Origin: a virus
Strand: one strand, 5' to 3'
Length of the DNA stretch: 29,377 nt
IMG/VR virus record: IMGVR_UViG_3300049489_000377
Span: 1-29,377 of that record
The notes under the pieces were generated by a model. It searched no databases and was not told the origin of the DNA. It saw only the letters and a program-made list of their open reading frames with translations. This document shows, piece after piece, positions 1 through 29,377 of the stretch. Position 1 is the first letter of the stretch. Each line of letters begins with the position of its first letter. A program made the position numbers and the translations under genes.

Positions 1-996
1 CTTACCAATCAGCGCGTGGGCCCTGTCGGCCAGTTCATCTCGACGGGCCTTACCCTTCGCGACGTGAAGATCGCAGCAGACGAGCTTGCAGGCTCGGACA
101 AGTGCGAGATTCAGATCGACGGTAAGACGGTGATCGTCGGATACGTCGATGACTTTGATTTCGAGTACGACGCGAACCGCGCAGACCTGAGGGTCTCGGG
201 GCGCTCCAAGACGGGCGACCTCGTGGACTGCTCGGCGGTCTATAAGACCGGGCTTTGGCAGAAGGCGACGATCTACCAGATTGCGAGCGACCTTTGCTCG
301 CCGTTCGGCATCGACGTTATCCCGCTCATCGCAAACGACTCCGACTGGCTCAAGCCGTTTGATCGCTTTCGCATCGACGACGGCGAGACAATCTACGAGA
401 CGCTTTCGCGCGCCGCAGAAATGCGCGCATTGCTTCTACGCAGCGGCAACGACGGGAGCCTGCAGATCGAGCGCGCCGGGCAGTTCTCGTCAGGCGCTGG
501 CCTCGAGCTCGGAAAGAACGTGCTCGTGGGAGGCATCGGGCGCAGCTACCGCGAGCGCTTCAGCGAATACACCTTCAAGGGCCAGACCGAAGCCAGCGAC
601 GAATGGTCAGGTCTTACAGCGAACAAGCTTGAGCATCGGGTCACAGACACAGGCGTTGCGCGCTACCGGCCTCTCGTTGTTCACAGCGACAAGCAGCGCG
701 GAAAAGACGACGTTGGCAAGCGCGCAGTCTGGGAGCGAAACGTAAGGGCAGGGCGCTCGATTCGGCACCGCTACACGGTCGAGGAGTGGACCTCGAATCT
801 GGGCCTTTTGTGGGACCCGAACACGTTGGTCAAGATCACTGACGACTGGTGCGACGTGGACACAACGGCGCTTGTGACCTCGGTTGAGTTCGTGCTCGCC
901 GGCGAGCGCGTGACCACGTTGGAACTCATGGACCCGTCGGCATTCACGGCGAAGCCTGAGCAGCCGAAGGAACCGAAGAAGAGGGGACGACGCTGA
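1..996 (+). CDS. Mu gp44-like baseplate hub protein (5' truncated)
   Basis: The reading frame is open from base 1, so the true start lies left of the window; the GTG at 16 is internal. The 331 visible residues match the gp44/gpP baseplate hub family of Mu-like phages. The recognisable part is an early GYVDDF...SGRSKTGDLVDCSA stretch, which in this family lies between the first beta domain and the hub core. Hub proteins join the tail tube to the spike and help trigger contraction. The C-terminus is basic and Lys/Pro-rich (PKEPKKRGRR). The stop overlaps the next ATG (TGATG), and the next gene is gp45-like, as in Mu. Family assignment is from remembered motifs plus gene order. Confidence 0.85.
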   Translation, partial: LTNQRVGPVGQFISTGLTLRDVKIAADELAGSDKCEIQIDGKTVIVGYVDDFDFEYDANRADLRVSGRSKTGDLVDCSAVYKTGLWQKATIYQIASDLCSPFGIDVIPLIANDSDWLKPFDRFRIDDGETIYETLSRAAEMRALLLRSGNDGSLQIERAGQFSSGAGLELGKNVLVGGIGRSYRERFSEYTFKGQTEASDEWSGLTANKLEHRVTDTGVARYRPLVVHSDKQRGKDDVGKRAVWERNVRAGRSIRHRYTVEEWTSNLGLLWDPNTLVKITDDWCDVDTTALVTSVEFVLAGERVTTLELMDPSAFTAKPEQPKEPKKRGRR

Positions 997-1622
997 TGGA
1001 TCGCGCGCTGTTCTCCGAGATCTCGGCCATGCTCAGGCCGCTTCAGCGCAAGCTGCGCAACCAGATCAACCGTGCTGTGATCGCGCTCGTAAGCGACTCG
1101 CCCGGCATGCAGAAGACTCAGGCCAGCGTGCTCTCTGGCGAAGTCATGGAGCAGGAGCACATGCAGCCCGGTGGGCTTACGCATGTCCCGCTCCCTGGGG
1201 CCGAGGGCCTCTTCGTCACCGTGTCAGGCGTGCGCGACGATGGCGTGATGATCTGCGTATCCGATCGCAACTACAGGCCCAAGGGTTTGCAGGCGGGCGA
1301 AACGGCGCTCTACAACGATGCGCCTGCGATCACACAAAGTAAGATCCTGCTCAAGCTCGACGGGTCTATCGAGGTGCTTCCTGCCGCGGGCAAGGGCGTA
1401 CTGATTGGCGGCTCGACTGCGACTCAATCGCTTGTGCTTGGCGAGGCGTTGATCGCGTACATCGATGCAGTGACAGCCGCGATCGTGACAGCTTTCGGAA
1501 CGATTGCAGCTGCCGCACCGTCTGGCGGGGCACCTGCGGCCACATCGCTTTCAGCCGCGCTCACGGCATCCGCTGCGCTGAAAACAGCGTCGCTGTCTCT
1601 GCTCCACAAAATCGATTCCTGA
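996..1622 (+). CDS. Mu gp45-like baseplate assembly/spike protein
   Basis: A 208-aa protein of about the usual length for Mu gp45 (baseplate assembly protein V/spike). Residues 1-30 form an amphipathic start (RPLQRKLRNQINRAV). The middle has an OB-like beta region with the family's pattern of a gene-state-dependent loop (GAEGLFVTVSGVRDDGVMICVSDRNYRPKGL, split here only for recognition: GLQAGETALYND follows). The C-terminus is Ala/Ser-rich. In Mu this protein forms the membrane-piercing tip. It is translationally coupled to the hub gene by TGATG. The next baseplate gene does not follow directly: a regulator gene intervenes. Confidence 0.82.
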   Translation: MDRALFSEISAMLRPLQRKLRNQINRAVIALVSDSPGMQKTQASVLSGEVMEQEHMQPGGLTHVPLPGAEGLFVTVSGVRDDGVMICVSDRNYRPKGLQAGETALYNDAPAITQSKILLKLDGSIEVLPAAGKGVLIGGSTATQSLVLGEALIAYIDAVTAAIVTAFGTIAAAAPSGGAPAATSLSAALTASAALKTASLSLLHKIDS

Positions 1623-1740
1623 GCGTCTAAAGGCGCTCAACAGGACCCACTGGTGCGCCGCAGCCACCGGCAAGCCTTTTCCTCCGTCAGGCGAACCGGA
1701 AACAGCGGCAACTTTTCCCGAGCACGTGGGGTGTTCGGAT

Positions 1741-1745
1741 GGAGG
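1741..1745 (+). promoter_or_regulatory. Strong Shine-Dalgarno GGAGG fixing the start of the regulator gene
   Basis: GGAGG lies 7 nt before the ATG at 1753. It decides against the upstream in-frame GTG at 1726. Neighbouring late genes rely on start/stop overlaps, so a free-standing strong ribosome site fits an independently inserted gene. Confidence 0.6.
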
Positions 1746-1752
1746 CACGACC

Positions 1753-2538
1753 ATGGCAAATTTCGCAGGACTGATTCCGAGAGCTGACTTCGCAGACAAA
1801 GAGCCGCGCATCCGAGACCTGGAGCTTGGGAAGAAGCTCGGTTACGCGTCGCCTGTAGATGTTCGTAAGCTGGTCGCCAGGCTGGCGGAAGCCGGCAAGC
1901 TGCCGGGCGCTTCAGTTGTTGCCACGGTGGCAAAAACCTCAGGAGGCCGCCCTGGGCGCGAATACTGGCTAGACGAGCGCAGCGCACTGCTCGTGGCGTC
2001 CCAGTCCGGCATGCCGTCCGGCATCGATGTCACCATCGAAGTGATCGATGTGTTCGTGCGCTACCGGCGTGGCGAGCTTCCAACTTCTCCGGATCCCATT
2101 CACCCATTGTTCGCTCGGCAGCGATCAGAGTGGGAAGCGCTGTGGTCACCCAAGGTAGTGCGCGCGCTCTGCGCGCTGTACGGGAACAGTAAGCTCTACA
2201 CCATGGGCGGTCAGATGCCCGGCGGATGGTTCGCAGGCATCCAGCGCATGATTTACGAGCACGTGTGGGATTCAGAACACGTTGCCGAGGCCATCAAGCG
2301 ATCGCCACGTGCGCGGCGTGGCAACAACTGGCACCAGCACATGACGCCCGAAGCGCGCGCTGCGTTCTCAGTCGAACTCGACGCAATTGCAGAAATGGCG
2401 ACGCTTTGCCTTGATCACACTGATCCGGTCAGCCGTTTTTGGGAGCGCATGCGAGAGCGCTACCTGAGCATGCCGATGCAGCTCGGGCTACGCGGAATGC
2501 TCATCTCGAGCAACGCGTCTCAAGCCCTTCCGTGCTGA
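1753..2538 (+). CDS. KilA-N/P63C-like phage regulator (putative antirepressor) inside the baseplate operon
   Basis: A 261-aa protein. The N-terminal part (about 8-110) resembles phage antirepressor/KilA-type DNA-binding starts: LGYASPVDVRKLV, GGRPGREYWLDERSALLVASQSG and IEVIDVFVRYRRGEL. The C-terminal part (about 125-235) resembles the P63C domain found in phage regulators, with WFAGIQRMIYEHVW, NNWHQHMTPEAR and DPVSRFWERMRERY. Such proteins usually regulate lysogeny or early transcription; none is a tail component. It sits between gp45- and gp46-like genes, flanked by 130 and 96 nt of noncoding DNA in an otherwise packed operon. That layout suggests a moron. The domain assignment is from pattern memory and needs a profile search. 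Confidence 0.65.
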   Translation: MANFAGLIPRADFADKEPRIRDLELGKKLGYASPVDVRKLVARLAEAGKLPGASVVATVAKTSGGRPGREYWLDERSALLVASQSGMPSGIDVTIEVIDVFVRYRRGELPTSPDPIHPLFARQRSEWEALWSPKVVRALCALYGNSKLYTMGGQMPGGWFAGIQRMIYEHVWDSEHVAEAIKRSPRARRGNNWHQHMTPEARAAFSVELDAIAEMATLCLDHTDPVSRFWERMRERYLSMPMQLGLRGMLISSNASQALPC

Positions 2539-2557
2539 CAGTAAGACACTCAGGTTC

Positions 2558-2614
2558 GCCGTCACGGCCTGGGCCGCTGGGGTTACTCCTTCCCCCTGCC
2601 GGCCGAACGACGGC
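2558..2614. other. Nested inverted repeat (structured RNA or terminator-like) before the gp46 gene
   Basis: GCCGTC (2558-2563) pairs with GACGGC (2609-2614), CGGCC (2565-2569) with GGCCG (2601-2605), and GGGG (2579-2582) with CCCC (2592-2595). Together they make a three-tier hairpin in the 96-nt gap after the regulator gene. There is no U-run after it, so a canonical intrinsic terminator is doubtful. It may instead insulate or shield translation of the gene starting at 2635. Confidence 0.4.
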
Positions 2615-2634
2615 ACTAACTCACGAGGTCCCGC

Positions 2635-3066
2635 ATGATCACAGCTGCAACTACCGGGATCGTGCGCAACGCAGACGGCAGTCTCTACGAAGACGATGGC
2701 CTCGAAACCGTCGTTGCGATCTCCCTGTTCACCGACGCGAAAGCCACGACAGCAGATGGCCTTGAGCCAGGCGACGATCCGCGAGGCTACTGGGCCGACG
2801 CGTACGACGATGAGCAGGGACTCAACATCGGCTCGAAGCTGTGGCTACTCGAAGGCGCCACGATGACAGTCACCGCTTTGCGCGAGGCCGAGACGTACGC
2901 GAAAGCAGCGCTCGAATGGATGATCGCGGACGGCGCAGCGGACCGCATCGAGTGCAAGGCGACGCGCCTGAGCGACGAAGCCGCATCGCTCGACATCGCG
3001 CTCTACAAGCCCGGCACCGGGTCACCTTACCAACTTACCTGGGAGCTGCACTTTGCCCTTCAGTAG
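2635..3066 (+). CDS. Mu gp46-like baseplate protein
   Basis: A 143-aa protein of the GP46 family, a baseplate wedge component of Mu-like phages. Evidence is the acidic start listing a diagonal of inputs (TVVAISLFTDAKA), the GYWADAY and GSKLWLL motifs typical of GP46, and the C-terminal beta strands (YQLTWELHFALQ). It starts at ATG 2635, 20 nt after a hairpin. Its last 14 nt overlap the next gene. Confidence 0.88.
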   Translation: MITAATTGIVRNADGSLYEDDGLETVVAISLFTDAKATTADGLEPGDDPRGYWADAYDDEQGLNIGSKLWLLEGATMTVTALREAETYAKAALEWMIADGAADRIECKATRLSDEAASLDIALYKPGTGSPYQLTWELHFALQ

Positions 3067-4126
3067 ACCGACGCTCCCGCAGATCGCGGCCCGCGTAAAG
3101 ACCGACATCAGCACGGCTCTCGACAGCACCGCTGCGTTCTTTCGCCGGTCCTTCGAGCGCGGTGTGCAGATGGCCATGGCTGGCGTCTCGCACCACCTGC
3201 ACGGCCACATGGCGTGGATCGCGCTTCAGCTTGATCCCACCTCGGCCGACGATGACATGGTGGAAAAGATCCACGGCAACCCGTGGGGAATCACGAAGGT
3301 AGCGGCCGTTCAGGCAGTCATCACTGTCACTGCCACAGGCACCAACGGGACAGTCGTTCCTGACACCACGACATCTTACCTTCGGTCAGACGGAACGCGC
3401 TTCACCGTCACCACCGGTGACACTGTGGCGGGCGGGACAATCACGCTCACGCTCACAGCCGATGAGCCAGGCGCATCGGGCAACACGGACGCGGGCGAAG
3501 TCCTGACCATTGAAAGCCCGATCGCTGGCCTGAGCACTACTGCCACGGTCGCCACGCGGCCCACTGACGGCGCGGACGAAGAGACTCCCGAGGCTTACCT
3601 GGATCGCGTGCTGCAACGCCGCAGAACGCCTCCCAGGGGCGGCGCCGTGGGCGACTACGAAGCGTGGCTGCTCGAAGTCGCGGGCATCACGCGCGCGTGG
3701 GAGTACCCGAGGCAAGAGGGGCCCGGAACGGTTACCTGTTACGTCGTCAACGACGCTGCGGACCCGATCACAGTAAGCTCGGCCAAGCTCGCTGAGTGCG
3801 CCGCGCACCTGGACACGGCAACGCGGCAGCCGACGACGGCAGACGTTTACGTCTACACGCCGACGCTTCAGGCGGTAAACCTTACGATCAACATCTCGCC
3901 GAACACAGCAGCTGTTCAGGCGGCAATCACGACTGAGCTTGAGGCGCTGATCACGCGCGTGGCAAGCCCCGGCGGAACCGAAGTCTTACTGTCCGCGATC
4001 AATGAGGCGATCTCGATCGCCCCAGGCGAGACAGACCACGCGGTGGTGTCGCCGGTTGCCGACATTACTGTTCCATTCGGGAGCATGGCCACGCTCGGAA
4101 CCGTCACCTATGGGACGTTGCCGTGA
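3053..4126 (+). CDS. Mu gp47-like baseplate J protein
   Basis: A 357-aa baseplate J/gp47 family protein, one of the wedge arms connecting hub and tail fibres. It shows the conserved N-terminus with RPTLPQIAARVKTDI, the GVSHHLHGHMAWIA helix, the RTDGxRF-like YLRSDGTRFT turn, and TPEAYLDRVLQRRRTPPRGG followed by GDYEAW, the hallmark of the family. The start is a TTG (LPFSR) overlapping the upstream gene by 14 nt. No ATG or GTG fits the conserved N-terminus. The end overlaps the next gene by GTGA. Confidence 0.92.
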   Translation: MPFSRPTLPQIAARVKTDISTALDSTAAFFRRSFERGVQMAMAGVSHHLHGHMAWIALQLDPTSADDDMVEKIHGNPWGITKVAAVQAVITVTATGTNGTVVPDTTTSYLRSDGTRFTVTTGDTVAGGTITLTLTADEPGASGNTDAGEVLTIESPIAGLSTTATVATRPTDGADEETPEAYLDRVLQRRRTPPRGGAVGDYEAWLLEVAGITRAWEYPRQEGPGTVTCYVVNDAADPITVSSAKLAECAAHLDTATRQPTTADVYVYTPTLQAVNLTINISPNTAAVQAAITTELEALITRVASPGGTEVLLSAINEAISIAPGETDHAVVSPVADITVPFGSMATLGTVTYGTLP

Positions 4127-5124
4127 CCGCTGACGACTTCCTTCATCAGCTGCTAGCGCTTCTGCCTCCGGGTAAGGCATGGTCGCGCGAAGGCGTTTCG
4201 ATCCTTACCAGCGTGATGGATGGCATCGCGCCGGAGTTCGCGCGGGTGCAAGACCGTGCAGACGCGCTGCAACTCGAGCTCGACCCCAACACTGTCACGG
4301 AGATGATCGACGAGTGGGAGTCCGCGAACGGTCTCCCTGACGATTGCCAGGACCCGCTTTCGACCATCGAACAGCGGCGCGCTGCACTCATATCGAGACT
4401 TCGCGAAGCACAGGGACATAACCCCGCTGATTATGTCGCGATGGGCGTAGCGCTAGGGCATGCGTCAACCGGCGTTCTCCGAAGGCCTTACACCCCGTTC
4501 ACCGTGGGCAGCCCTGCGGGCGCACCGTTGTACGGGCCTGATTGGCTGTTCGCGTTCGACGTTCACTACATGGCGAACCTCATTGCGAGCCCGCACGACT
4601 TCACCACGTGGACAAACGTAAACGTTACCGTGTCCGCGAACGCGACCTATGACCCTGCCGGCTCTGCAATTGCTGACTCTCTCGACTTCGGCGCAGTCGC
4701 TCCAGCGTCGAGAACGCTCGCGATCGCAGGCGCTCCGCTTCATGTGCAGTTCAGTGTGTGGCTCGTTTCCTATACGGGCCTGCATCAGGTTCAGCTCGAT
4801 ATCATCGCGGTTGACGGAACGGTAAGCTCGAAGATCGTAACGGTCGATGAGCGCTGGGGCAGGCACGAGCACCGCGCAGAAGATTCGAGCGGAATTGCAA
4901 GCGTAAGGATCTCGCGCGTAGGCACGGGCAGCGGATATCTCGTTTACGCCTGGGGAGCCTGCGCTGGAGAAGTAGATGACGTCTTCGAGTGCAGGCTCGA
5001 CACGGTCAAGCAGGCGCACACGGTGGCGCTCTATCGCGTGGTCGGCGACCGCGCTGGATACATCGCTGGCGACTTCGTTTCGCTCGGTGCGCTCACTGCA
5101 AGCGCAGCCGGAACAGTCGTCTAA
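4123..5124 (+). CDS. Mu gp48/YmfQ-like baseplate protein with inserted beta-sandwich-like domain
   Basis: Residues 1-145 match the YmfQ/DUF2313 (Mu gp48) family: LLPPGKAW start, EFARVQDRADALQLELDPNT, EWE...GLP, and RRAALISRLREAQG. The family's closing motif (ECRLDTVKQAHTVALYR) appears only at about 289-306. A block of about 135 residues lies between, beginning NLIASPHDFTTWTNVNV. It looks like the carbohydrate-binding-type beta sandwiches used in tail fibres. The ordinary family length is about 190 aa; this one is 333. The C-terminus carries SLGALTASAAGTVV, a unit of the repeat in the protein at 8067-9128. GTG start, GTGA overlap. Confidence 0.85.
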   Translation: MTADDFLHQLLALLPPGKAWSREGVSILTSVMDGIAPEFARVQDRADALQLELDPNTVTEMIDEWESANGLPDDCQDPLSTIEQRRAALISRLREAQGHNPADYVAMGVALGHASTGVLRRPYTPFTVGSPAGAPLYGPDWLFAFDVHYMANLIASPHDFTTWTNVNVTVSANATYDPAGSAIADSLDFGAVAPASRTLAIAGAPLHVQFSVWLVSYTGLHQVQLDIIAVDGTVSSKIVTVDERWGRHEHRAEDSSGIASVRISRVGTGSGYLVYAWGACAGEVDDVFECRLDTVKQAHTVALYRVVGDRAGYIAGDFVSLGALTASAAGTVV

Positions 5125-9152: not shown

Positions 9153-11543
9153 ATGCTCAGCATGTTTCGTCGGAAAAACGACCCCCAAGGTGCACCAATG
9201 CTCAACTACCGAGACATTCTGATCAACGGCGTCGCGCTAGACCGGCGCACAAAGCTCAATTTCGTGGGGGTGTCTGGCGTTGACAACAGCGGCGAGGCTC
9301 GAACCGATGTTACGTTCGATGCCATCGGCACGTCCGTTCTGACTAGCGACCTTCCGCCCGGCGTAGATGGTCAGATCTTGGTGGCATCGGGCCGCGACGC
9401 GATTGGCGACGGTGGCGGCGGCCTGCTTGTGTTCGATGAGGCGTCCAGCGCGACGCCAGACAACGCAACCGTGTGGCAGGTGGATGCGCTGCCGGGTCGG
9501 TGGGAGCGGGTGTATGACGGGACCCACTACAATGTAAGGTGGTTCGGCGCGCATCCTGACGCGACTGCCTCCGCAAACGCGACCGCGATCCAGGCAGCGA
9601 TTGATGCTGCGGTGGCTGCTGACGTCCGTGTGGTCCTGATCCCGTCTGGGATCTATCAAATATCGCGCACCATATACCTGGGCGCATCGGCGTCGTTCTC
9701 TTGTCTAGAGCTGCGCGGTGACGGATACGCCTACGGCGGTGACTACGGTGGCACAGCACTGGTTGCCACATTCTCCAATGCCCCGGCGGTCAACGTGCAG
9801 GCCGCGCGCGGCTCGGTTGTCCGCGACATGGCGCTAGTTGGGCCCAACGTCGATCACGTATCGAGCAACAGCCTGGGTAATGCAAACCCACTGCTGGACG
9901 ACACGAATATCGCGAACTGGTGGGATCCGACGCTCAGCGCGAACGGCGCCACCCGTTACGCGCCAAGCTGCGGAATTGCGATCGATGGATGGTCTGGGTC
10001 GGCGCCTGCAACGGCGTACCCGACAACTCACATTTCGTACGGGAAAAGCTTCTCGACAGATGTCATGATCGATAACTGCCAGATAATCGGGTTTAACACC
10101 GCGATCGTAAACCAGCCATGCGATGCGGACGGCAACGCCGACTTCACCGTAGTCCGCAGATGCAGCATATCCTATTGCGTGTATGCGATCAGCGTCGGTA
10201 ACTCGCAGAGTCGTCAGTTCGGCATACAGGATGTGAAGGTTGGCCAGTGTTACACCGTGCTGACAAACATTACGCATGGAGCCAGGTTCGGGAAATTCAA
10301 CGGAACAGTCGACAACCTGAGCGTTGGGTTTTGTATCCAGTTGTTTGACTTCGGGACCAGCGCGTACTTCGGCCCGATCAAGTTTTCATGCTGCTATGCA
10401 GAGAGCGTGTGGCGGCTGGGAAACTACGCGGCGAACAGCGCGTCGGAGCAAGGGGTTACGTTCGATAACTGCCAGTTCGGTTTTCATCTGCAGAACACTA
10501 CGCGCGGCATTCCTGCCACTATTCTGAGCGGGTCGTCACAGCAGACACTGCTGCGATTCTCAGGGTGCACGTTCGGGAACTACCCGTCAGTTATCCCTAT
10601 CGATCAGCAAGGGGTAGTGCTAGACAACTGCTTGTGCGCTAGCGTCAACAGGCTTGAGAATGGAGTCACAAAAACATATGAGGCGCTATTTCACAACGCC
10701 ACATGTGACGGCGTGATCATCGGGATCGGAAATGGCACTGAGGACCATCGGATAAAGTTCGATCAACTAAACATAGACACGCTGGCCGATGCGGGCAGTG
10801 TTATTGCGCGGCGCGGGTTCAGCAAATCTGACCGCAAAAGGTGCATACCGATTCACACGCACGTGGTGTCTGCGATAGACGACACGCTCGACGATGTCCA
10901 CGTGCGTAGACAATACACTGCGTGGGACAAGTCCGGCTTCTCTTCGTGCACGCTCGTTCACGGATCCTCGAGCAGCTCAGCTAACACGGGAGTGTTGACC
11001 ATCGTGCTATCCGCTGCCACGGCAGCCGAGGCTGAGCATTTCGGCTATGCCGCTGGAGACATCATAGTTGACGGCGCGACGAAAAGCGTTTTCGCCATTC
11101 GCTCGTTCAACGATGGGACGAATACGATCGTTGCGGAGCTACAGAACAACTATAAGGTGTCCGGCGGGAACTACACCACAGTGACCGCGTTCAGCGAGAC
11201 GGTGGGCGTTATGTACGCCTACAACGCTCGTCTGTTTTGCCCGCAATATACGCTCATCGCAGACGTCACATCTGGCAGTGCGGTGCTTGCTGCGACGGGC
11301 AGAGATGACGGGTACTCCGGCTTCATTTCGTCAGGCGGCGTAACCGACGCTGTTAATGTGGACGACCGTGCGTATGTTGCACCCACTGTAGACGCCTGGA
11401 TAACGTACGGTGCAAACAAGGTGACCGCGATAGACGCTGACGGGACGTCCATAACCTTAGACGGCACGGCGCCACGCAATGCCAGCCGCAAACGGCTCGG
11501 CATATGGATCCGAAAACCTCCGGCTAATGAGGCGTCAAGATGA
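9153..11543 (+). CDS. Tailspike with N-terminal pectate-lyase-like beta-helix start
   Basis: A 796-aa protein. Residues 1-120 are an attachment region ending in an RWERVYDG...YNVRWFGAH linker. From about 130 the text NATAIQAAIDAA...VVLIPSGIYQISRTIYLG is the classic start of Pectate_lyase_3-type beta-helices. The 150-560 region fits a right-handed helix. Residues 590-790 form C-terminal beta domains. Such spikes bind and often cleave surface polysaccharide; which one cannot be told. Base use is less GC-biased than in neighbours (ATA, AAC, TAT codons). The GTAAG word common elsewhere is missing from 9539 to 11566, so the body was probably acquired separately. Start: ATG 9153 behind AGGAG. Confidence 0.85.
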   Translation: MLSMFRRKNDPQGAPMLNYRDILINGVALDRRTKLNFVGVSGVDNSGEARTDVTFDAIGTSVLTSDLPPGVDGQILVASGRDAIGDGGGGLLVFDEASSATPDNATVWQVDALPGRWERVYDGTHYNVRWFGAHPDATASANATAIQAAIDAAVAADVRVVLIPSGIYQISRTIYLGASASFSCLELRGDGYAYGGDYGGTALVATFSNAPAVNVQAARGSVVRDMALVGPNVDHVSSNSLGNANPLLDDTNIANWWDPTLSANGATRYAPSCGIAIDGWSGSAPATAYPTTHISYGKSFSTDVMIDNCQIIGFNTAIVNQPCDADGNADFTVVRRCSISYCVYAISVGNSQSRQFGIQDVKVGQCYTVLTNITHGARFGKFNGTVDNLSVGFCIQLFDFGTSAYFGPIKFSCCYAESVWRLGNYAANSASEQGVTFDNCQFGFHLQNTTRGIPATILSGSSQQTLLRFSGCTFGNYPSVIPIDQQGVVLDNCLCASVNRLENGVTKTYEALFHNATCDGVIIGIGNGTEDHRIKFDQLNIDTLADAGSVIARRGFSKSDRKRCIPIHTHVVSAIDDTLDDVHVRRQYTAWDKSGFSSCTLVHGSSSSSANTGVLTIVLSAATAAEAEHFGYAAGDIIVDGATKSVFAIRSFNDGTNTIVAELQNNYKVSGGNYTTVTAFSETVGVMYAYNARLFCPQYTLIADVTSGSAVLAATGRDDGYSGFISSGGVTDAVNVDDRAYVAPTVDAWITYGANKVTAIDADGTSITLDGTAPRNASRKRLGIWIRKPPANEASR

Positions 11544-15855: not shown

Positions 15856-15876
15856 AGCCTTACCTTTCGCCCCTGC

Positions 15877-16660: not shown

Positions 16661-16663
16661 GTC

Positions 16664-17751: not shown

Positions 17752-18451
17752 GGGGCACCTCGAAACGATCGAGCGGCGTCGAGTAAGCGAGCATCAGCGG
17801 GTGGCGCGGGTGCCCGTTCTTCGTGCGCCCGAGGCACATCGGTTCGTCCGCGCCTTCGGCCTCGCGAGCAATCTCGAGGATCCTTACCGTCCTACTCGCG
17901 ACGAGCTTGGCGACCCGTGCGCCTCCCGTTGCGCCCCACGCAAACACCGGGCGGTCGTATTCGATCGCAGCCCTTACCCAGTCGTTGTTTTCAGGGCCGA
18001 TCGGGTCTGGTGCGTCCAGCAGTCCGGCAGGGTCCGTCGATCGCAGCGCGAACAGGTTGACGACCCAGATGCCAGACATGCCCCAGCGGCGTGCGAAGCC
18101 CATGCACTTGCGGATCGTGGGGTCGTCTGCGTGAGCATCCGCCGTGCTCGGGTTGAGCATGACGAACGTGGCGAGAGGTCCGTCAGCCCACCTACGCCAC
18201 AGCGTGTACCGATACCGGCCACAAGCAGAGACTTCGGCGCCGGATTCTCCGATCATGTCACCAGGCCAGGCGGGGAGTCCCGGTAATTCCCCGATGCGAC
18301 CTGTCCGCGCGTGTCTTACGCTGTCCGTCTCAGGCGGGGCAATCGTGCCAGATTCGTCCGGTAGTCCCCCGGTGTCCCTGACTGTCTTACCATCGATGTG
18401 ATGAAGGTCATCATCTCGAAGGAGCTTCGACTCTGACGTTTTCGCGCTCAT
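17744..18451 (-). CDS. DUF1643 family protein
   Basis: A 235-aa protein. The ATG at 18451 overlaps the integrase stop (ATGA); a longer in-frame extension runs through the integrase gene and is not real. After a 65-aa variable start the DUF1643 core is clear: CGRYRYTLWRRWADGP, FVMLNPSTADAHADDPTI, RKCMGFARRWGMSGIWVVNLFALRSTDP, PIGPENNDWV, and FAWGATGG. Members are often phage-borne, with unknown biochemistry; some resemble nucleoside-modifying enzymes in fold. A tight link to an integrase is notable here. Confidence 0.85.
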   Translation of the reverse strand: MSAKTSESKLLRDDDLHHIDGKTVRDTGGLPDESGTIAPPETDSVRHARTGRIGELPGLPAWPGDMIGESGAEVSACGRYRYTLWRRWADGPLATFVMLNPSTADAHADDPTIRKCMGFARRWGMSGIWVVNLFALRSTDPAGLLDAPDPIGPENNDWVRAAIEYDRPVFAWGATGGARVAKLVASRTVRILEIAREAEGADEPMCLGRTKNGHPRHPLMLAYSTPLDRFEVPHG

Positions 18452-19632
18452 TCTTGGGCCTTTCGCTTGGCTGCCTTCTTCTTGGTCCCGGTTTGAGACC
18501 CGGTTTGAGCAAGGAACCGTGACCCGACCCGGGCCCCGAGCTCCACGACTTCGCTCGGCTGCGTGCCCAGGTAGCCGGCCTGCACGGCCTCTGTTTTGTG
18601 CCCGCCGACTGCGCGCAGAAGGCGAGCGCTCGCGAACGTCTGAGCGACCGTCAGCATGGTGTGCCGGGCCGTGTGGGAAGCCACGGGCAGGTCGAGCCCG
18701 ATCGCGAGCAATCCGCGTTTGTACACGTGCCACGCCGTGCTGATCGACCAGTGCTCCGAATGCCGCTTGCGTGTCGTGGGCGGGCGGGGGAACACCAGCA
18801 CATCGAAGCCCGGCCACTGCTCGCGCTCCATCGTCGCCCGGTGCGCGGTGATCAGCGCGAGCCCATCGGGTCCAAGCGCAGCTGTGCGCGCGTAACGCCC
18901 CTTCGTCGGCCCGACGCGTCCGCGCACCTGAGCTCGGCGAATCGTGACGATGCCGGTGGTCATGTCGATGTCGCCCCACTCGAGCGAGCTCACTTCGCCG
19001 AACCGGCAGCCCAGAACGAACTGGGCAGCAGCGAGCGGGTAGAACGCCTCTGCGTGGCGCTGGAACCACGACAGCAGCGCGACAGCCTCTGACTCAGTGA
19101 GCGCCCGTCTGGGGGCGTCCTCGAGCGCCTGTGAGCGGGTAGGCCGCGTGCTGCGCCGCTCGGTCTCGGCTGCCGGGTTGCCCTCGCAGTAGCCACGGCG
19201 CACCGCGTAGCGGAACACGTGTTTGAGCACGTCCCTGATGCTGTTCACGGTGCCGGGCGCGAGCGGGAGCGCGTCGAGGTAGGCCTGGAGCTCGCGCCGG
19301 GTGAAGGCGTCCACGAATTGCTGACCGTAGCGCTTGGTCAGCTTGCGGACGTGCGAACCGTAGGAGATGTGCGAACCGTAAGACTCGACAGTTGCGAGCC
19401 ACTCCGAGGCCACGGCGCCGAACCTGCGGCGGTCCTTCGCTCGCGGGTCGGTCTCGTTGCGTGCCGCCTCGAGCTGGCGAGCGCGCTCGACCACTGCAAG
19501 TGCCTTGCTCGCGGCCTCGAAAGTGACCACGCGATCACGGTGCTTGCCGTCGCGCTGGTCGATCCAGTAGAGCCGCGCCTTCCACAGCTTCTTACCGTTG
19601 CGCCTGCCGCACTGCTTGAGTCCCCGGCTCAT
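18448..19632 (-). CDS. Tyrosine recombinase (phage integrase)
   Basis: A 394-aa integrase counted from ATG 19632, which overlaps the previous stop (ATGA); an in-frame ATG at 19641 is possible. The N-terminal arm/SAM-like domain spans about 68-160. Catalytic residues by pattern are Arg210 (LGCRFGEV), Lys244 (PTKGRYAR), His320-x-x-Arg323 (HTARH), His345 (GGHKT) and Tyr354 (AGYLG). The C-terminus is a KKKAAKRK tail. It integrates and excises the phage at att sites. GTAAG words are missing from 18391 to 19377. A 12-bp direct repeat (19351, 19369) encodes YGSH twice. Confidence 0.93.
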   Translation of the reverse strand: MSRGLKQCGRRNGKKLWKARLYWIDQRDGKHRDRVVTFEAASKALAVVERARQLEAARNETDPRAKDRRRFGAVASEWLATVESYGSHISYGSHVRKLTKRYGQQFVDAFTRRELQAYLDALPLAPGTVNSIRDVLKHVFRYAVRRGYCEGNPAAETERRSTRPTRSQALEDAPRRALTESEAVALLSWFQRHAEAFYPLAAAQFVLGCRFGEVSSLEWGDIDMTTGIVTIRRAQVRGRVGPTKGRYARTAALGPDGLALITAHRATMEREQWPGFDVLVFPRPPTTRKRHSEHWSISTAWHVYKRGLLAIGLDLPVASHTARHTMLTVAQTFASARLLRAVGGHKTEAVQAGYLGTQPSEVVELGARVGSRFLAQTGSQTGTKKKAAKRKAQE

Positions 19633-20021
19633 TCGTCGCATGCTTCCCTGGTTGGCGTTCGGCTGAAGTCCCTCAGCGCTTCGAGCATGCGTCCCCATTC
19701 CCGATATCCGCGGTGCAGGCGAGCTAGCCACATGCCCATCGTTTCGTCGGGGTGCGCTCCGTACATTCGCCGGTGAGTCATGTTGCCGTCGAGTTGATCG
19801 GCCAGGTCTTTCCGTGCCGCGTCTCGCTCAGAGCGCAAGCGCTCAACATCTCGCGCAAGGTCTTCTGCGCACACAGTAGCGCCATTGAAAGAGTAAGCAT
19901 GAACGGTTCCGCCAAGTGACCTCGCGGCAAGCCGCGCCTTTTCCTCGGTCGCGTAAGCAGCGACCGAGGCGCCGCTTTTGAGGCGGACGGGCTTAAAATC
20001 TCGCTCGACAACGAAGATCAT
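19629..20021 (-). CDS. Hypothetical protein upstream of the integrase
   Basis: A 130-aa protein starting at ATG 20021 (ATGA overlap). The N-terminus FVVERDFKPVRLKSGASVAA then a helix of acidic and basic residues (DVERLRSERDAARKDLAD) suggest a small domain plus coiled coil. The end has WLARLHRGYREWGRMLEALRDF. Function unknown. Confidence 0.65.
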   Translation of the reverse strand: MIFVVERDFKPVRLKSGASVAAYATEEKARLAARSLGGTVHAYSFNGATVCAEDLARDVERLRSERDAARKDLADQLDGNMTHRRMYGAHPDETMGMWLARLHRGYREWGRMLEALRDFSRTPTREACDE

Positions 20022-21437: not shown

Positions 21438-21476
21438 CTCGTCACCACCCTCCTCTTACCATCCGCCAAACCAACA

Positions 21477-21740: not shown

Positions 21741-21762
21741 ACCGTCTCGCTTTCTGCCGGCG

Positions 21763-23470: not shown

Positions 23471-23795
23471 GCTCGCCCCCGATCTTACCGAAGCGCTTCT
23501 CTTCCTCGGCGAGCAACGCGTCGGCGCACTTGTACGCGGAATCAAGCGTCAGGTCAGATGACACAAGATGCCCCGCGTACCAACGCCACGCATGGCGCCG
23601 CATTTCGTTGTGGTCGGTGATGGTAGTAAGGTTTCGCTTGAACAGTTCATTGCACTCGTCGCGCAACGCGTCGCTTTGCGCATGCATCGCGTCAAGCGTG
23701 GCCTTACGCTCCCGCTCGAATACTTCGATCTTTCCTGAAAGCTCCTCGGCCAGCTTGTCAACCGCGCTTACCTTCTCGTCGATGCCTTCGCTCAT
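23463..23795 (-). CDS. Coiled-coil hypothetical protein
   Basis: A 110-aa protein, ATG 23795 (TGATGA); ATG 23804 is an alternative. The helix KLAEELSGKIEVFERERKAT and a Trp-rich segment (RRHAWRWYAGHL) precede an LTLDSAYKCADALLAEEE helix. Unrecognised. Confidence 0.65.
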   Translation of the reverse strand: MSEGIDEKVSAVDKLAEELSGKIEVFERERKATLDAMHAQSDALRDECNELFKRNLTTITDHNEMRRHAWRWYAGHLVSSDLTLDSAYKCADALLAEEEKRFGKIGGERG

Positions 23796-23971
23796 CACAT
23801 CCACCCCTTCTTACCTTCGATCGCGTACCGTTCCTGAGTGTCTCGGCGCCTGTTTGACGCTTTCGTGAACGTGAGCCATTCGACGCTAGGCGATTTGCCA
23901 ACGCGAAGCTTTGCGCGCTCCCAGCGCTTCCACGCGCGTAGCTCAGACCTGAGCGCTTGCTTGAGTGACAT
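23795..23971 (-). CDS. Hidden 58-aa basic protein
   Basis: Frame from ATG 23971 (or 23974) to TGA 23795. It overlaps the HTH gene by about 30 nt and the next start by TGATG. The product is basic and Trp-rich (KQALRSELRAWKRWERAKLR), then KSPSVEWLTFTKASNRRRDT, with a final IEGKKGWM. DNA or RNA binding is possible. It closes the 150-nt hole between two genes, which supports its reality. Confidence 0.55.
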   Translation of the reverse strand: MSLKQALRSELRAWKRWERAKLRVGKSPSVEWLTFTKASNRRRDTQERYAIEGKKGWM

Positions 23972-24272
23972 CATGTGACCTTACCGTTCCTCGGTTCTTG
24001 AACTTGAATACGGTTGCGTGCGAAACCCCGACCTCAAAGGCGATCCATGTGGCCTTCTCGCCAGCGGCAAGCAACTCGCGGATCCTTGCCACCCTTACAG
24101 CGTCGATCTCGTTCGGGTTTCGCCTGCGCTCTGCCCGCCAGTTTTCACCGGCAGCAACGCGCTTTGCCTGGCTCCACGACACGCCGAACGCCCGCGCGCA
24201 CTCGGCGAGGCTCGCGCCGGTCTGAGCCTTTGCACGAAGCTGTGCGGCTGACTCGATGGTAAGGCGGATCAT
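23943..24272 (-). CDS. Twin helix-turn-helix DNA-binding protein
   Basis: A 109-aa protein, ATG 24272 (ATGA overlap). Two HTH-like halves are visible: SLAECARAFGVSWSQAKRVA and EKATWIAFEVGVSHATVFKF. The pattern of paired HTH with a basic end fits a small transcription factor or replication accessory factor. It is the best regulator candidate in this operon, but no repressor family was recognised. Confidence 0.6.
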   Translation of the reverse strand: MIRLTIESAAQLRAKAQTGASLAECARAFGVSWSQAKRVAAGENWRAERRRNPNEIDAVRVARIRELLAAGEKATWIAFEVGVSHATVFKFKNRGTVRSHDVTQASAQV

Positions 24273-25036: not shown

Positions 25037-25038
25037 GG

Positions 25039-25926: not shown

Positions 25927-26987
25927 TCCGATGCCTTACCTTTCATGCGTCGAAGGACGCGAAACTCACTCGCCGCAACCGTCGACGCGGCGCGCTTTTG
26001 CGTGCGATAGCTCCACCCACTGCCGTCCGGGAGAATCCCGCGCGGAGCGTTGCCGATCTCGGCCTTGAGCGCGTTCTCGATGGTCGATATCTTACCATCT
26101 AACTCTTTGCGATCGGCCTTCATTCGTTCGAGATCCCCCATGTGATCGAACCACTCAGCGCCGAGCTGTGCGAACGTTTCTGGATCTTCGCGAGGGTAGA
26201 GCGCTTTGATTGCTCCGGTCGTGCTCTCGCTGCCATCGACGGGCGGAAGGCGCCCAGCCTCGCACTCATGCACGAATGAGCGCGTAAGGTTTACGATCTG
26301 ACGATCGGTCAACTCCGTGCGGTCAACGTCGTCCCAGACCAGGCGCTGGCCTGCCACGAGTGCAGCCCCCGTGCAGCGCTGGACACCGCACACGATGGCC
26401 TCGGCGCGGCACTGCGCGGCGTAGTAGTCGGGCACGCCTTCGACCCAGTGCTCAGCTGAGCCAAACCCGATGTTTTTGACCTGCAAAGGGTGCCAGCCGC
26501 AGTTGATCACGTTGTCGTGAAACTCCGCCGCGAGGTCGCTGCAAGCGCTGGACGAAGCGCCAAACGCATCGCGCAACTCGCGCAAGATCTTACGCATTCG
26601 GCTAGCGTCCATCAGGCTGGACCGCTCGCTTACGAAAGCGTCAGGGGTCGCCGTCATCCAAGGATGCACGCGCGACCTGAGTGTCAGGCCGAACGGCACG
26701 GCAACGCGGCCAGTGCGACCTGAGTATCCCGCCACGATCGCGTCCTCAAGCTGGTTGCCCCAGAAAACACGCTCGCTATCGCTGAGATCCTCAGGCGGCA
26801 GCCTGCCCGTCTTGACGCATGCGAGCATGTACGCGCTCTGAAACGGCGAGATTCCGAGCACACAAGCGACCTCACTTGCGCCCACCGTGTGCACCGTGCG
26901 GCGTGCCTTGAGCCAGTTCTCGCGGTCGCGCGAGTCGGCGATCACGTCGAACGGAACGACACTCAGGTTTCGTGCTGCGTTGTTCAT
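25923..26987 (-). CDS. YqaJ-type viral recombinase exonuclease
   Basis: A 354-aa PD-(D/E)xK nuclease. Motifs are GASEVACVLGISPFQSAY, WGNQLEDAIVAGY, TATPDAF and PLQVKNIGFG (Q-x-K in place of E-x-K, a known variant), then DYYAAQCRAEA, the downstream Q motif. About 45 residues (SERSSLMDASRMRKILREL and on) separate TPD from QVK, more than usual. The enzyme resects 5' strands for RecT. The C-terminal 100 residues are helical. Start ATG 26987, overlapped by a 30-aa gene's stop. Confidence 0.88.
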   Translation of the reverse strand: MNNAARNLSVVPFDVIADSRDRENWLKARRTVHTVGASEVACVLGISPFQSAYMLACVKTGRLPPEDLSDSERVFWGNQLEDAIVAGYSGRTGRVAVPFGLTLRSRVHPWMTATPDAFVSERSSLMDASRMRKILRELRDAFGASSSACSDLAAEFHDNVINCGWHPLQVKNIGFGSAEHWVEGVPDYYAAQCRAEAIVCGVQRCTGAALVAGQRLVWDDVDRTELTDRQIVNLTRSFVHECEAGRLPPVDGSESTTGAIKALYPREDPETFAQLGAEWFDHMGDLERMKADRKELDGKISTIENALKAEIGNAPRGILPDGSGWSYRTQKRAASTVAASEFRVLRRMKGKASE

Positions 26988-27076
26988 CTTGCCAACCTAT
27001 TTCCTTCCGCGACGGTAAGGTCGCCGAACACCTGAACCCACGCCCTCAGCACGGCCATCCGCTCGCGGAAGCTCAT
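26984..27076 (-). CDS. Hidden 30-aa protein before the exonuclease
   Basis: Frame ATG 27076 to TGA 26984. The start overlaps the upstream stop (ATGA) and the stop overlaps the exonuclease ATG (ATGA). The product is MSFRERMAVLRAWVQVFGDL followed by TVAEGNRLAR. Two exact couplings on a 93-nt frame make it a likely gene or translation-coupling leader. Function unknown. Confidence 0.55.
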   Translation of the reverse strand: MSFRERMAVLRAWVQVFGDLTVAEGNRLAR

Positions 27077-27351
27077 ACCGGCGCCCCGTCACCGTCCACC
27101 GACACCGGGCCAGCGGGGGCCATCGAGACAGCGCCCGTCCTCAGCGCGTGGTGCTTGCGGCATGCTTCGATCGCGTCCGCCTTCGTGGGCCAGTGTTCAC
27201 CGCTCGGGTCTTTGATCATCTCCGGGTGCTTCGGATACCTGGGCAGAAACCAGGCTGCCCATTCGTCGTCGACGCGATGGTCCACGTCGTAGAATCCGTG
27301 CGCGACATGCGCGCGAAAACCGATTGCAGAGAAAGTAAGCTCCTCAGACAT
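27073..27351 (-). CDS. Hypothetical protein
   Basis: A 92-aa protein, ATG 27351, GGAG 6 nt upstream. The N-terminus FSAIGFRAHVAHGFYDVDHR and EHWPTKADAIEACRKHHALR form a compact mixed fold; the tail is Ala/Pro/Gly-rich. The long upstream frame with APRRLATL repeats is an antisense artefact of the octapeptide repeat gene. Unrecognised. Confidence 0.65.
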   Translation of the reverse strand: MSEELTFSAIGFRAHVAHGFYDVDHRVDDEWAAWFLPRYPKHPEMIKDPSGEHWPTKADAIEACRKHHALRTGAVSMAPAGPVSVDGDGAPV

Positions 27352-28096
27352 CATCCACTCCCTTGTCAGCGCGCACAAAACACCCGTTGTCATCCAGACG
27401 GTAAGGCCGGTTTGGCTCAATCCCATCCTCACCGACGTGGGCCACTTCGATCCGCCAGCGCTTGCTGTTCCAGCGCCTGATCGCAATGATCCCACCTTCG
27501 CCAGCCGTCGCGGTGCCACGTGCGCCAGCCGTCGCGGTGCCAGCGTAGCCAGCCGTCGCGGTGCCAGCGTCGCCAGCCGTCGCGGTGCCACGTGCGCCAG
27601 CCGTCGCGGTGCCACGTGCGCCAGCCGTCGCGGTGCCAGCGTCGCCAGCCGTCGCGGTGCCACGTGCGCCAGCCGTCGCGGTGGCGTACACGACGCCTAC
27701 GCCGCAGAGATCGACGATCTGCTGCACAGCCGCATCACGCGTGCCGGAGTACGTCACCCACGCGCGCGGCACCTTGACCTTACTGTTCAAGTCAATGGCA
27801 TCATCGGCGAACACTGCGCACACGAGCCACACCGCATTCGGGTCTGAGTGATTGATCGACGCGCTCGCATCGCCAGCTCCCATCAGCCACCCGTGCAGGC
27901 CGTGGCCGCACTCCTGCGTAGGCTGCCAGTCAGGCGCCTCCACCGGGCCGGACTCAGGCCAAACGAACCCGCCATGGGCGCGGCGCTGACTGTCGCAGCA
28001 CCTAAGCATGTACGTGATCTTACCCTCGCGGCTACGCGCCAAAAACTCGCGCATCTCGTCGACTGGTGCAGCCTTGCTTTTCTTCGCGCGTGCCAT
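27344..28096 (-). CDS. TATAG-repeat protein with conserved phage N-domain
   Basis: A 250-aa protein, ATG 28096 (TGATG). Residues 10-130 are a conserved phage domain with CGHGLHGWLMG and NAVWLVCAVFADDAIDLNSK followed by KVPRAWVTYSG. Then come eight octapeptides TATAGxxG (TATAGARG, TATAGDAG, TATAGYAG, TATAGEGG). The end is a short beta tail (IIAIRRWNSKRWRIEVAHVG). Similar GTATAG repeats form beta-solenoids in bacterial and phage proteins, reminiscent of ice-nucleation repeats. The repeat number probably changes by slippage. The cellular job is unknown. Confidence 0.75.
   Translation of the reverse strand: MARAKKSKAAPVDEMREFLARSREGKITYMLRCCDSQRRAHGGFVWPESGPVEAPDWQPTQECGHGLHGWLMGAGDASASINHSDPNAVWLVCAVFADDAIDLNSKVKVPRAWVTYSGTRDAAVQQIVDLCGVGVVYATATAGARGTATAGDAGTATAGARGTATAGARGTATAGDAGTATAGYAGTATAGARGTATAGEGGIIAIRRWNSKRWRIEVAHVGEDGIEPNRPYRLDDNGCFVRADKGVDDV
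27491..27682 (-). repeat. Eight tandem 24-bp coding repeats
   Basis: Unit gccagccgtcgcggt (+ strand) plus 9 variable bases, encoding TATAG plus a three-residue spacer. Eight units of exactly 24 nt with near-identical cores suggest recent unequal exchange. It is coding, not a CRISPR array. Confidence 0.88.
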
Positions 28097-28398
28097 CAAT
28101 CCTCCCCATCCAAGCCCACCAAGCGCAGGCCAGCCAAACTAACCCCACCCCTCACGCGAGCTTCAGCAGCGCGCCTCAGCCGGTCAGCGCGGGCGCGCGC
28201 CCGGCGACAGCAAGAGCAGTCGCACGTGCCGTCATGGGACTCCCAGACCATGTCGGACTCGCAGTCGTTCTCGGAGCCTTCGCCACACGCTACGTCGTCT
28301 GAACGAGTGCCTGGCAGGTCGCCAACGTGACGAGCCGTGTCACCGTCGAGAGGCTCGCCGCATCGGCAGCACGATAGATCTGACGGTTCGGCTATCAC
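28096..28398 (-). CDS. Zinc-ribbon-like small protein
   Basis: A 100-aa protein, GTG 28398 (GTGA overlap). CCRCGEPLDGDTARHVGDLP and CDCSCCRRARARADRLRR give Cys clusters and a basic end. Zinc binding is inferred. Confidence 0.62.
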   Translation of the reverse strand: MIAEPSDLSCCRCGEPLDGDTARHVGDLPGTRSDDVACGEGSENDCESDMVWESHDGTCDCSCCRRARARADRLRRAAEARVRGGVSLAGLRLVGLDGED

Positions 28399-28592
28399 CT
28401 GGCCCGCTCCTGATAGTTCGCACGCGCCCGCAGGTAGTCGCTGTAGAGCTCCGCCTTGAGCTGCGCGGCATCGGCGTCGTCGCCCAGCTCGTCCACGAGG
28501 TCAGCGACGTAGACAGCGCGCTCAGCGATAAGCCGCCATTCGCACAGGAGACAGTCAGACTCGGCACGCCGGATCGGGATGATCTTGCCCAT
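28395..28592 (-). CDS. Hypothetical protein
   Basis: A 65-aa protein, ATG 28592 (TGATG). It starts GKIIPIRRAESDCLLCEWRL, with a CxxC, then an acidic and a basic helix. Unrecognised. Confidence 0.6.
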   Translation of the reverse strand: MGKIIPIRRAESDCLLCEWRLIAERAVYVADLVDELGDDADAAQLKAELYSDYLRARANYQERAR

Positions 28593-28792
28593 CACGCGAA
28601 CCACCGAGCAAAACGGATGTCGTTGGTAGACAGCGCAATCACTGCCAGCTCGCGCGCATTGGGCGAGCCTTGCGCGATAGCCGTCAGCACCTGATCGCGC
28701 AGGTCTCGCTCAAGCCTGTGCGCGGTCTCGTCGTCGCTGCTGTCGCTCGCGATTTTGCTGACCATCACGCGCGCCTTTCTTACGGTGATCAT
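28592..28792 (-). CDS. Hypothetical helical protein
   Basis: A 66-aa protein, ATG 28792 (TGATGA); the longer upstream frame is rejected. Charged helices (ETAHRLERDLRDQVLTAIAQ) and LAVIALSTNDIRFARWF. Unrecognised. Confidence 0.58.
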   Translation of the reverse strand: MITVRKARVMVSKIASDSSDDETAHRLERDLRDQVLTAIAQGSPNARELAVIALSTNDIRFARWFA

Positions 28793-29016
28793 CACGCGAC
28801 CTTCCTCTCGCACCTGACAGCCTCGAAATACGCGACCTCTGCGCAATCCATGTCGAACTCGAGCGCCTTCGTGTGCGCCCGGGCAAGCGCCACGGATGAC
28901 CCGCACGCGCCCTGCTCTTCGATCGCGCGGAGCAGTTCGCGCCCGCTCAGCCACCGCTGCGTTGCCGCGTTCCAGCGCGACATAAGACGCTCAGTAATGT
29001 CTTCCCCCGTGCCCAT
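28792..29016 (-). CDS. Hypothetical helical protein
   Basis: A 74-aa protein, ATG 29016 (TGATG). It reads EDITERLMSRWNAATQRWLS and then VALARAHTKALEFDMDCAEV. Unrecognised. Confidence 0.58.
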   Translation of the reverse strand: MGTGEDITERLMSRWNAATQRWLSGRELLRAIEEQGACGSSVALARAHTKALEFDMDCAEVAYFEAVRCERKVA

Positions 29017-29222
29017 CACTCCCCCCTCCAGCGCCGATGCGCTGCATCCCTCGTGTTGCGGTGCAGGCCTGCGGACAGATTCGCGGCCAGGTCCCAGAGC
29101 CGAGCCGACTCGGTCTCCATCTCCTCCGTGCGCGGGTACGCGTACGTGAGTGCGTCGCTCTCAGTGCGCAGCAGGTGGGCCACCCATTCGCGCGCCTGCA
29201 GTGGCGTCAGCGGGCGACTCAT
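29016..29222 (-). CDS. Hypothetical helical protein
   Basis: A 68-aa protein, ATG 29222 (ATGA). Residues such as LTPLQAREWVAHLLRTESDA and LWDLAANLSAGLHRN are helical. Unrecognised. Confidence 0.58.
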   Translation of the reverse strand: MSRPLTPLQAREWVAHLLRTESDALTYAYPRTEEMETESARLWDLAANLSAGLHRNTRDAAHRRWRGE

Positions 29223-29377
29223 ACAGCCCGCCCCATCATCGAGTCGTAAGATCTGCCCAAACGCTCCTGACGGTCTTCACGCTCGCGCATCCTGAGCGCG
29301 TGAGCCGTCATCTCGGCGTCATGCGCCAGCACCTTACGTTCCAGCTCCGCGCCCACGAAGTGGTGACTAAGCACCTG
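29219..29377 (-). CDS. Partial hypothetical protein (5' end outside)
   Basis: An open frame entering from the right edge and ending at TGA 29219, 52 residues visible. It is charged and helical (ELERKVLAHDAEMTAHALRM, then RERED), overlapping the next start by ATGA. Unrecognised. Confidence 0.5.
   Translation of the reverse strand, partial: QVLSHHFVGAELERKVLAHDAEMTAHALRMREREDRQERLGRSYDSMMGRAV

Follow-up and report, generated by a model that had tools for sequence, protein, structure and literature searches.

A dense, asymmetric word with a GTAAG core in the DNA of a predicted temperate phage

Few self-recognition words, such as Chi and the uptake signal sequence (USS), are known, and they revealed the ways in which bacteria distinguish self from foreign DNA. 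The present report concerns the word GTAAG (CTTAC on the other strand), and the longer motif of which it is the core, in a 29,377-base IMG/VR virus record (IMGVR_UViG_3300049489_000377), the whole of which was analysed and is called the window here.

According to a 2021 survey, Chi-like words were known for only five species, and the survey itself found none for the majority of Proteobacteria; core genes hold Chi at a higher density than genes acquired recently (PMC8022716). Lambdoid phages that carry no RecBCD inhibitor over-represent Chi, also when they have their own recombinase (ratio of observed to expected 2.50), and the selection is similar to or stronger than that in the host. Phages with both a recombinase and an inhibitor avoid Chi, recombinase-free lambdoid phages hold about 0.2 Chi per kb, and the copies are concentrated between the replication genes and the terminase (PMC3784561). 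With regard to uptake words, USS counts separated all 12 phages known to lysogenise Pasteurellaceae from the others among 2,045, and accumulation with co-evolution time was proposed (PMC6776037). In cyanobacteria, the highly iterated palindrome HIP1 (GCGATCGC) is found about once in every 1,000 nt, and its distribution nearly coincides with that of CGATCG methyltransferases (PMC4390886); a function of its mark together with mismatch repair was proposed. The bacteriophage exclusion (BREX) system of E. coli methylates the fifth base of GGTAAG, and lambda from BREX+ lysogens was marked at all 18 sites (PMC6326788). The word described here is, as Chi is, short, asymmetric and over-represented beyond base composition and codon use.

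Excess of the word and its longer form

GTAAG/CTTAC occurs 129 times in the window (46 GTAAG and 83 CTTAC), whereas 38.0 copies were expected from base composition, 20.5 from a first-order Markov model (dinucleotides) and 36.2 from a second-order model (trinucleotides). A first-pass annotation of the same DNA had counted about 127 copies against about 39 expected and had called the enrichment threefold; both figures hold, and the excess is stronger than it stated. Its estimate for GGTAAG, about 54 against about 12, agrees with the 54 found (17 GGTAAG and 37 CTTACC) against 11.8 expected. The comparison word GTTAC/GTAAC is indeed far scarcer than GTAAG, but the exact count is 24 and not about 30. 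No other 5-mer ranks above CTTAC in the first- or second-order model, and only one does so under base composition. Under a maximal-order model, in which the tetramer counts are given, it still ranks first (129 against 109.9, z 6.2); this expectation is high because the tetramers GTAA (174 against 97.8) and TAAG (144 against 84.3) already hold the excess. An apparent avoidance of GTAC (116 against 218 under the second-order model) was rejected as an artefact of inflated GTA and TAC counts, the first-order expectation being 115.

The excess also stood out in 300 synonymous shuffles in which each protein and its codon use were preserved. In 41 genes, hand-picked from the list of open reading frames (ORFs) and in a few cases overlapping by some bases, the word occurs 102 times, whereas the shuffles averaged 32.3 copies and never exceeded 46 (z 14.2); the next best 5-mer reached only z 6.3. 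The region 14843-17743, which gave no confident gene calls despite long ORFs on both strands, was excluded from the codon tests. The first-pass annotation had suggested k-mer counts against Markov and codon-shuffled models as a check, which upheld the excess, and had named two outcomes as arguments against its view, namely a codon-preserving shuffle with a similar count and a word equally common in unrelated phages. Neither was observed, the other phage contigs lacking such strength once protein repeats and composition are allowed for. As it also claimed, the word is present on both strands and in every usable frame: GTAAG was found 23 times in frame 0 and 31 times in frame 1 of the genes, there being only two sense-strand frames because the third would give a stop, and CTTAC 21, 18 and 9 times in the three frames. 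Its remark that the word creates rare codons applies to TTA, a rare leucine codon in the window (13 uses, 9 of them due to the word), and to GTA (23 of 74 uses), and is weaker for CTT (21 of 111), GGT (14 of 86) and CGT (11 of 83).

Beyond these claims, the word proved to be part of a longer, gapped motif, which is conserved in a relative and is missing in its full form from the tail-spike gene. An A is found at position -3 of GTAAG in 80 of the 129 copies (24 expected, z 12.6), the strongest dependence at the scanned offsets among 5-mers with at least 25 copies, and T is scarce on both sides of the core (6 of 128 at -1 and 6 of 128 at +5). In the 80 copies with A at -3, the preceding base is a purine in 71 and T in none (the TA frequency would give 8.6), and T follows the word in one copy. 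The consensus unit is R-A-N-V-GTAAG-R, ten letters with a gap, which is not its own reverse complement and is thus asymmetric and non-palindromic. The avoidance of T at -1 is not special to the window, since two unrelated contigs described below (L112 and L146) also avoid T before the word. A..GTCAG, with 22 copies in genes against 11.3 in shuffles, is perhaps a weaker form of the word (GTMAG).

Counted as ANVGTAAGV, called the full word below, the motif has 78 copies (28 on the plus and 50 on the minus strand), as compared to 6 for the pattern read backwards (3 and 3). Within genes there are 55 copies, whereas the codon shuffles gave 8.7 with a maximum of 17 of 300; since one and the same window served both to refine the motif and to count its excess, this fold is somewhat inflated, while GTAAG itself had been named beforehand. 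The first bases of the copies are as follows.

Plus strand, ANVGTAAGV (pattern count): 119, 739, 1336, 2186, 2538, 3770, 4819, 4900, 5129, 6121, 6671, 7550, 9039, 11637, 12277, 12721, 13669, 14179, 16120, 17412, 19375, 19890, 20381, 24256, 25638, 27012, 27332, 27398
Minus strand, ANVGTAAGV (pattern count): 48, 3374, 3880, 3984, 5649, 5694, 6715, 6954, 7129, 7408, 8189, 11725, 12331, 13462, 14327, 15102, 15653, 15858, 16483, 16662, 16858, 16911, 17516, 17882, 18314, 18385, 19590, 20928, 21429, 21454, 21840, 22107, 22332, 22559, 22803, 22879, 23702, 23766, 23809, 23979, 24397, 24481, 24812, 25437, 25934, 26090, 27778, 28018, 28778, 29332

Probable selection, conservation and spacing

The fold enrichment of the full motif over the codon model was similar on the two strands of the genes (sense 35 against 5.3, 6.6-fold; antisense 20 against 3.2, 6.2-fold), indicating a signal at the level of DNA rather than an RNA element. 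A difference between sense and antisense in the use of encodable sites was considered and dropped, since it vanished once codon use was modelled. At the places where the proteins could synonymously encode the full motif, about one third (55 of 150) use it. Such places are themselves in excess: the proteins offer 149, as compared to 105 after shuffling of the residue order (z 5.1), while none of six control words exceeded z 2.3. Selection for the word therefore seems to have extended to the amino acid sequences. The same test was less clean for the bare 5-mer GTAAG (z 4.3), two of eleven control words reaching 2.8 and 2.6.

Only one close relative was found, the contig L009 (5,195 bases, 94% identity in the hub gene, 16 GTAAG and 9 full words). 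The parts that align with the window are about 13% divergent outside the words. Full words were intact in 7 of 8 cases from the window to L009 and in 7 of 7 cases in the other direction, against 0.48 of comparable positions intact by chance (P 0.03, for these 8 and 7 sites only), while GTAAG copies of the window without the A were kept in L009 at chance level (4 of 9). A 1.57-kb stretch of L009 (1878-3448), located between the baseplate spike gene and GP46, differs from the window and does not align to it; it has no full word where 4.5 were expected (P 0.011), at an ordinary GC content of 65.2%. We infer that this stretch is a recent import.

Full-word density in the window is 2.66 per kb (2,655 per Mb), and lies between 2.0 and 4.6 per kb in 10 of 11 blocks. 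The eleventh block is the following gene, which has none.

9153..11543, plus strand: tail-spike or depolymerase-like gene (PHROG exopolysaccharide (EPS) depolymerase / tail spike, 6.5e-10)

From the density elsewhere 6.9 full words were expected in this gene (P 0.001), and none of its 12 encodable places is used; its lone GTAAG has the A at -3 but a T at -1. Since the codon-shuffle expectation is only 0.3, the gene is unenriched rather than avoiding the word. Its GC content is 57.7%, as compared to 60.9-66.3% in the ten other blocks, and it is probably a recent import. The spike is about 35% identical to spikes in two contigs of other composition, L011 (58% GC) and L012 (37% GC), and likely represents the import of a host-recognition function.

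Outside the spike gene there is about one copy per 345 bp. With that gene excluded, a choice made after its gap was seen, the gaps are more even than random, with a coefficient of variation (CV) of 0.73 against 0.98 (P 0.0012). The longest of them spans 990 bp (P 0.0023), and only one gap is 25 bp or shorter against 5.4 expected. Of 49 control hexamers with 50-110 copies, treated in the same way, none was as evenly spaced. The minus strand carries more copies than the plus strand (50:28, P 0.017), as is the case within 17744-29377 (27:8), and no helical phasing of sites was found among the copies of the window.

In the first-pass annotation, selection was suggested to act on a DNA word and not on amino acids. 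The codon shuffles, the similar fold on both strands, the conservation of the full word (at few sites) and the even spacing outside the spike gene support this view. The excess word is considered a DNA word kept by selection, presumably through a DNA-reading protein. That no selection acts, and that codon bias, composition or context-dependent mutation pressure creates the word, is in our view very improbable. The overlapping words GGTAA, CCTTA and TAAGA are raised, as is A..GTCAG, while A..GTGAG (5 against 12.2) and A..GTAGG (2 against 5.4) are low, as directed mutation into the word would give; moreover, the excess over tetramers under the maximal-order model is small. This explanation, however, fails the codon shuffles, the excess at the amino acid level, the spacing outside the spike and the conservation of the full motif.

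Gene content and occurrence elsewhere

The 29,377-base record is probably a fragment rather than a whole genome, and no head or terminase genes were found among the scanned proteins of the window. From left to right, the plus strand carries a Mu/SfV-like baseplate hub gene, GP46, baseplate wedge genes, a tail fibre, the tail spike with EPS-depolymerase similarity, an amidase and small genes. Further on, the minus strand carries, again from left to right, a DUF1643 gene, a tyrosine integrase, small genes including one for a helix-turn-helix protein, a DnaQ-like exonuclease, RecT and RecE. This gene content (baseplate genes, integrase) would make the window part of a temperate phage with a contractile-type baseplate.

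1..5124, plus strand: Mu/SfV-like baseplate genes (hub, GP46, two wedge subunits), including the stretches alignable to L009 that were used for the conservation measure
18448..19731, minus strand: tyrosine integrase (phrog_1 2.2e-43; PF00589)
23943..24272, minus strand: 109-residue helix-turn-helix DNA-binding protein (PF02796 8.6e-7; phrog_664 DNA binding protein 1.9e-9; two such regions matched)
25039-25926, minus strand: RecT-like annealing protein
25923-26987, minus strand: RecE-like exonuclease (phrog_148 2.9e-81 and phrog_434 1.3e-55, given jointly for the RecT/RecE pair)

The RecT-like and RecE-like genes are predicted to be the phage's own recombination pair. The DUF1643-family protein at 17744-18430 adjoins the integrase; relatives of it occur on numerous plasmids (1,136 records, at less than 60% identity) and in a metagenome-assembled genome (MAG) of Planctomycetota (L013). 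The ORF 16906-17322 on the minus strand matches phrog_12600 at 1.4e-29.

Among viral relatives, the best 80 relatives of the hub were taken. Words were counted in 94 sequences of at least 3 kb: the window, its own stretch L001, L009, 89 viral contigs and two MAG loci (L010 and L013). The GTAAG ratio was above 2.5 only in the window, L001 and L009, the median of all 94 being 0.79. None of the other 91 had a ratio above 2.47 (L043) or a full-word density above 0.77 per kb (L059). L014, an IMG/VR phage that is the nearest RecE/RecT relative (49% identity for RecE, 61% for RecT), has 2 full words in 21 kb, and its whole record has 8 against 8 for the control pattern. It also has a relative of the 14363-14842 gene. 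L014 shares the recombination module with the window and differs from it in DNA style.

A scan of contigs for three words at fixed spacing gave at least 120 stretches, and words were counted where these were long enough (216 sequences; 169 after the scan matches were masked). The word-rich contigs were L202 (4.08 per kb), L179 (3.68), L163 (2.45) and L208 (2.18). In L163 (4110-7744) a tandem repeat of about 105 bp in a protein gene carries the word at the same place in each unit and so mimics enrichment. In L208, L202 and L179 the words are clustered on one strand and were taken for repeats. Of two contigs with about 55% GC, L112 has 24 words and no copy of the control in its whole record (G870, 22 kb), and L146 has 36 and 7 (G871, 43 kb), but in the stretches fetched from these records GTAAG is not enriched relative to the second-order model (36 against 29.8, rank 88; 45 against 47.1, rank 287).

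Six further protein searches for a host gave matches that were all below 60% identity, with mixed hosts. The one relative among genome contigs, at 38%, lies in a Planctomycetota MAG whose genome shows no enrichment (22 words against 120 for the control). None of 199 Planctomycetota and 398 Pseudomonadota genomes had a word density comparable to that of the window. The densest of these, as read by eye from the tables, was G149; its 978 copies in about 2.5 Mb amount to about 390 per Mb, whereas the window reaches 2,655 per Mb. The ratio of pattern to control was up to about 2, as compared to 13 in the window. In 274 class-level genomes, partly overlapping with these, a two-word pattern was found at no more than 6 places per genome. 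Since the samples reached only Planctomycetota and Pseudomonadota, the host likely lies outside the sampled genomes of these two phyla. No report of the word as a genome-wide signal was found among the open-licence papers listed, as judged by titles and abstract starts.

Possible readers of the word and comparison with known systems

The reading favoured here, tentatively and with a probability of roughly 0.35, is that the word is Chi-like, read by a host helicase-nuclease and mirrored by the temperate phage. A host DNA-processing protein would read the word as a mark of 'self', and selection would keep it. An end-processing helicase-nuclease of the RecBCD, AddAB or AdnAB type would halt degradation and begin recombination at the word, and a temperate phage that does not block the nuclease would gain from a copy near every possible end. 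Recently imported genes would not yet have acquired it. The word resembles the self words Chi and USS because it is asymmetric, dense, found on both strands, conserved and missing from an imported-looking gene. The lean to a Chi-like role comes from the gain that the phage itself would have from the word, which would fit its reshaped proteins.

Several observations weigh against this reading. Known Chi words are G-rich, whereas R-A-N-V-GTAAG-R is not and differs from them. No host was found, with no near DNA match and no match to the spike protein in the phage collection. The gaps are even only with the after-the-fact exclusion of the spike gene, and are not more even than random when it is included (CV 0.94 against 0.98, P 0.40; longest gap 2,598 bp, across the spike). 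Strand polarity is unclear (45 same-strand neighbours against 41.2 expected, P 0.21), and GTAAG copies of L009 without the A were all kept in the window (4 of 4). The density of 2.66 per kb is more than ten times that of Chi in recombinase-free lambdoid phages, and the copies lie in all modules but the spike, unlike lambdoid Chi with its place between replication genes and terminase. Moreover, the phage encodes its own RecE/RecT, while phages with recombinase and inhibitor avoid Chi (PMC3784561).

Alternatively, the word could be of the uptake type, a naturally competent host preferring DNA that bears it and the prophage having accumulated it by long residence, which is thought unlikely. Uptake sequences are more evenly spaced than random and occur in both orientations, and the even spacing outside the spike, the lack of clear polarity, the gapped motif of core plus flank and the absence of the word from the spike gene and the unaligned L009 stretch would all suit such a word, as would the precedent of the Pasteurellaceae phages. 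Nevertheless, ANVGTAAGV is not the Hin-USS (AAGTGCGGT), and the Neisseria and Apl uptake words differ from it as well. The 199 Planctomycetota and 398 Pseudomonadota genomes lack a comparable density, and the phage would have no obvious gain, yet its proteins are shaped for the word. The density of 2,655 per Mb also compares poorly with the saturation of the longer Hin-USS at about 750 per Mb (PMC6776037). A phage protein that needs many evenly spaced sites for replication, packaging, segregation or recombination is a doubtful, though slightly better, candidate. The occurrence of such word strength only in this lineage, the window and L009, among the contigs compared supports such a role, whereas the lack of enrichment in L014, which carries related RecE/RecT, makes that pair unlikely as the reader. 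The first-pass annotation saw nothing in the window that identifies the reader protein, and we agree. A protein encoded in the missing part of the genome could be the reader. By position only, the helix-turn-helix protein at 23943-24272 is a candidate; its gene directly follows that of the DnaQ-like exonuclease, adjoins RecT and RecE, and has no relative at E 1e-4 among the fetched contigs (L009 stops short of the region) and no match in the phage collection at E 0.01. A single-sequence structure model of the protein is all-helical and of low confidence (mean pLDDT 71.9, pTM 0.48). This link is positional, and we know of no phage that uses about 80 dispersed sites in such a way. Two options in the first-pass annotation fit poorly, a packaging site with 78 copies across all modules but the spike, and a primase site with a 10-base gapped motif, known primase sites having about three bases; a Chi-like word and a modification site were its other two.

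It is improbable, in our estimate, that the word is a modification site, which an enzyme of host or phage would methylate and which would be kept because the mark has a function. The core resembles the E. coli BREX site GGTAAG, with its 54 copies here, and the longest gap of 990 bp outside the spike is comparable to the HIP1 frequency of about one per 1,000 nt. A defence site, however, should be avoided or neutral in a phage and not enriched, and the A at -3 (80 of 129) lies outside the six-base BREX site, which has no further specificity; in the structure paper on BrxX the term 'flanking' occurs nowhere. No methyltransferase was found among the scanned proteins, part of the genome being missing, and HIP1 is palindromic whereas the word of the window is not. 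A broader and still doubtful possibility is a genome-wide word of about one per 350 bp that is kept at a cost to protein sequence, and whose reader, encoded by host or phage, would be a type of protein so far not linked to words of this sort. Such a word would be either a third uptake-type family outside Pasteurellaceae and Neisseriaceae, or the phage's own dispersed signal for replication, packaging or recombination.

That a phage bends its proteins for a dense and unrelated word points to a strong DNA-reading process, and the exact sequence could be used as bait for the reader. In the way that USS counts mark Pasteurellaceae phages (PMC6776037), the word could also serve as a fingerprint for finding the host.

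With regard to the described systems, the word shares with HIP1 a very high genome-wide density, of the order of one per kb, but is asymmetric and has no enzyme among the scanned proteins, while HIP1 is palindromic and linked to a methyltransferase. The E. coli BREX site has the same GTAAG core and is likewise asymmetric, but it is a six-base defence mark that lacks the A at -3, and it gives a phage no reason to gain copies. Like USS of Pasteurellaceae and the DNA uptake sequence (DUS) of Neisseriaceae, the word is gapped and genome-wide, is scarcer in what appear to be recent imports, and resembles words that are accumulated by the temperate phages of their hosts; it differs from them in sequence, in the GC-rich genome and in a density about 3.5 times the Hin-USS saturation. 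As with Chi, it is short, asymmetric, double-stranded and over-represented, and it is enriched in what is predicted to be a temperate phage.

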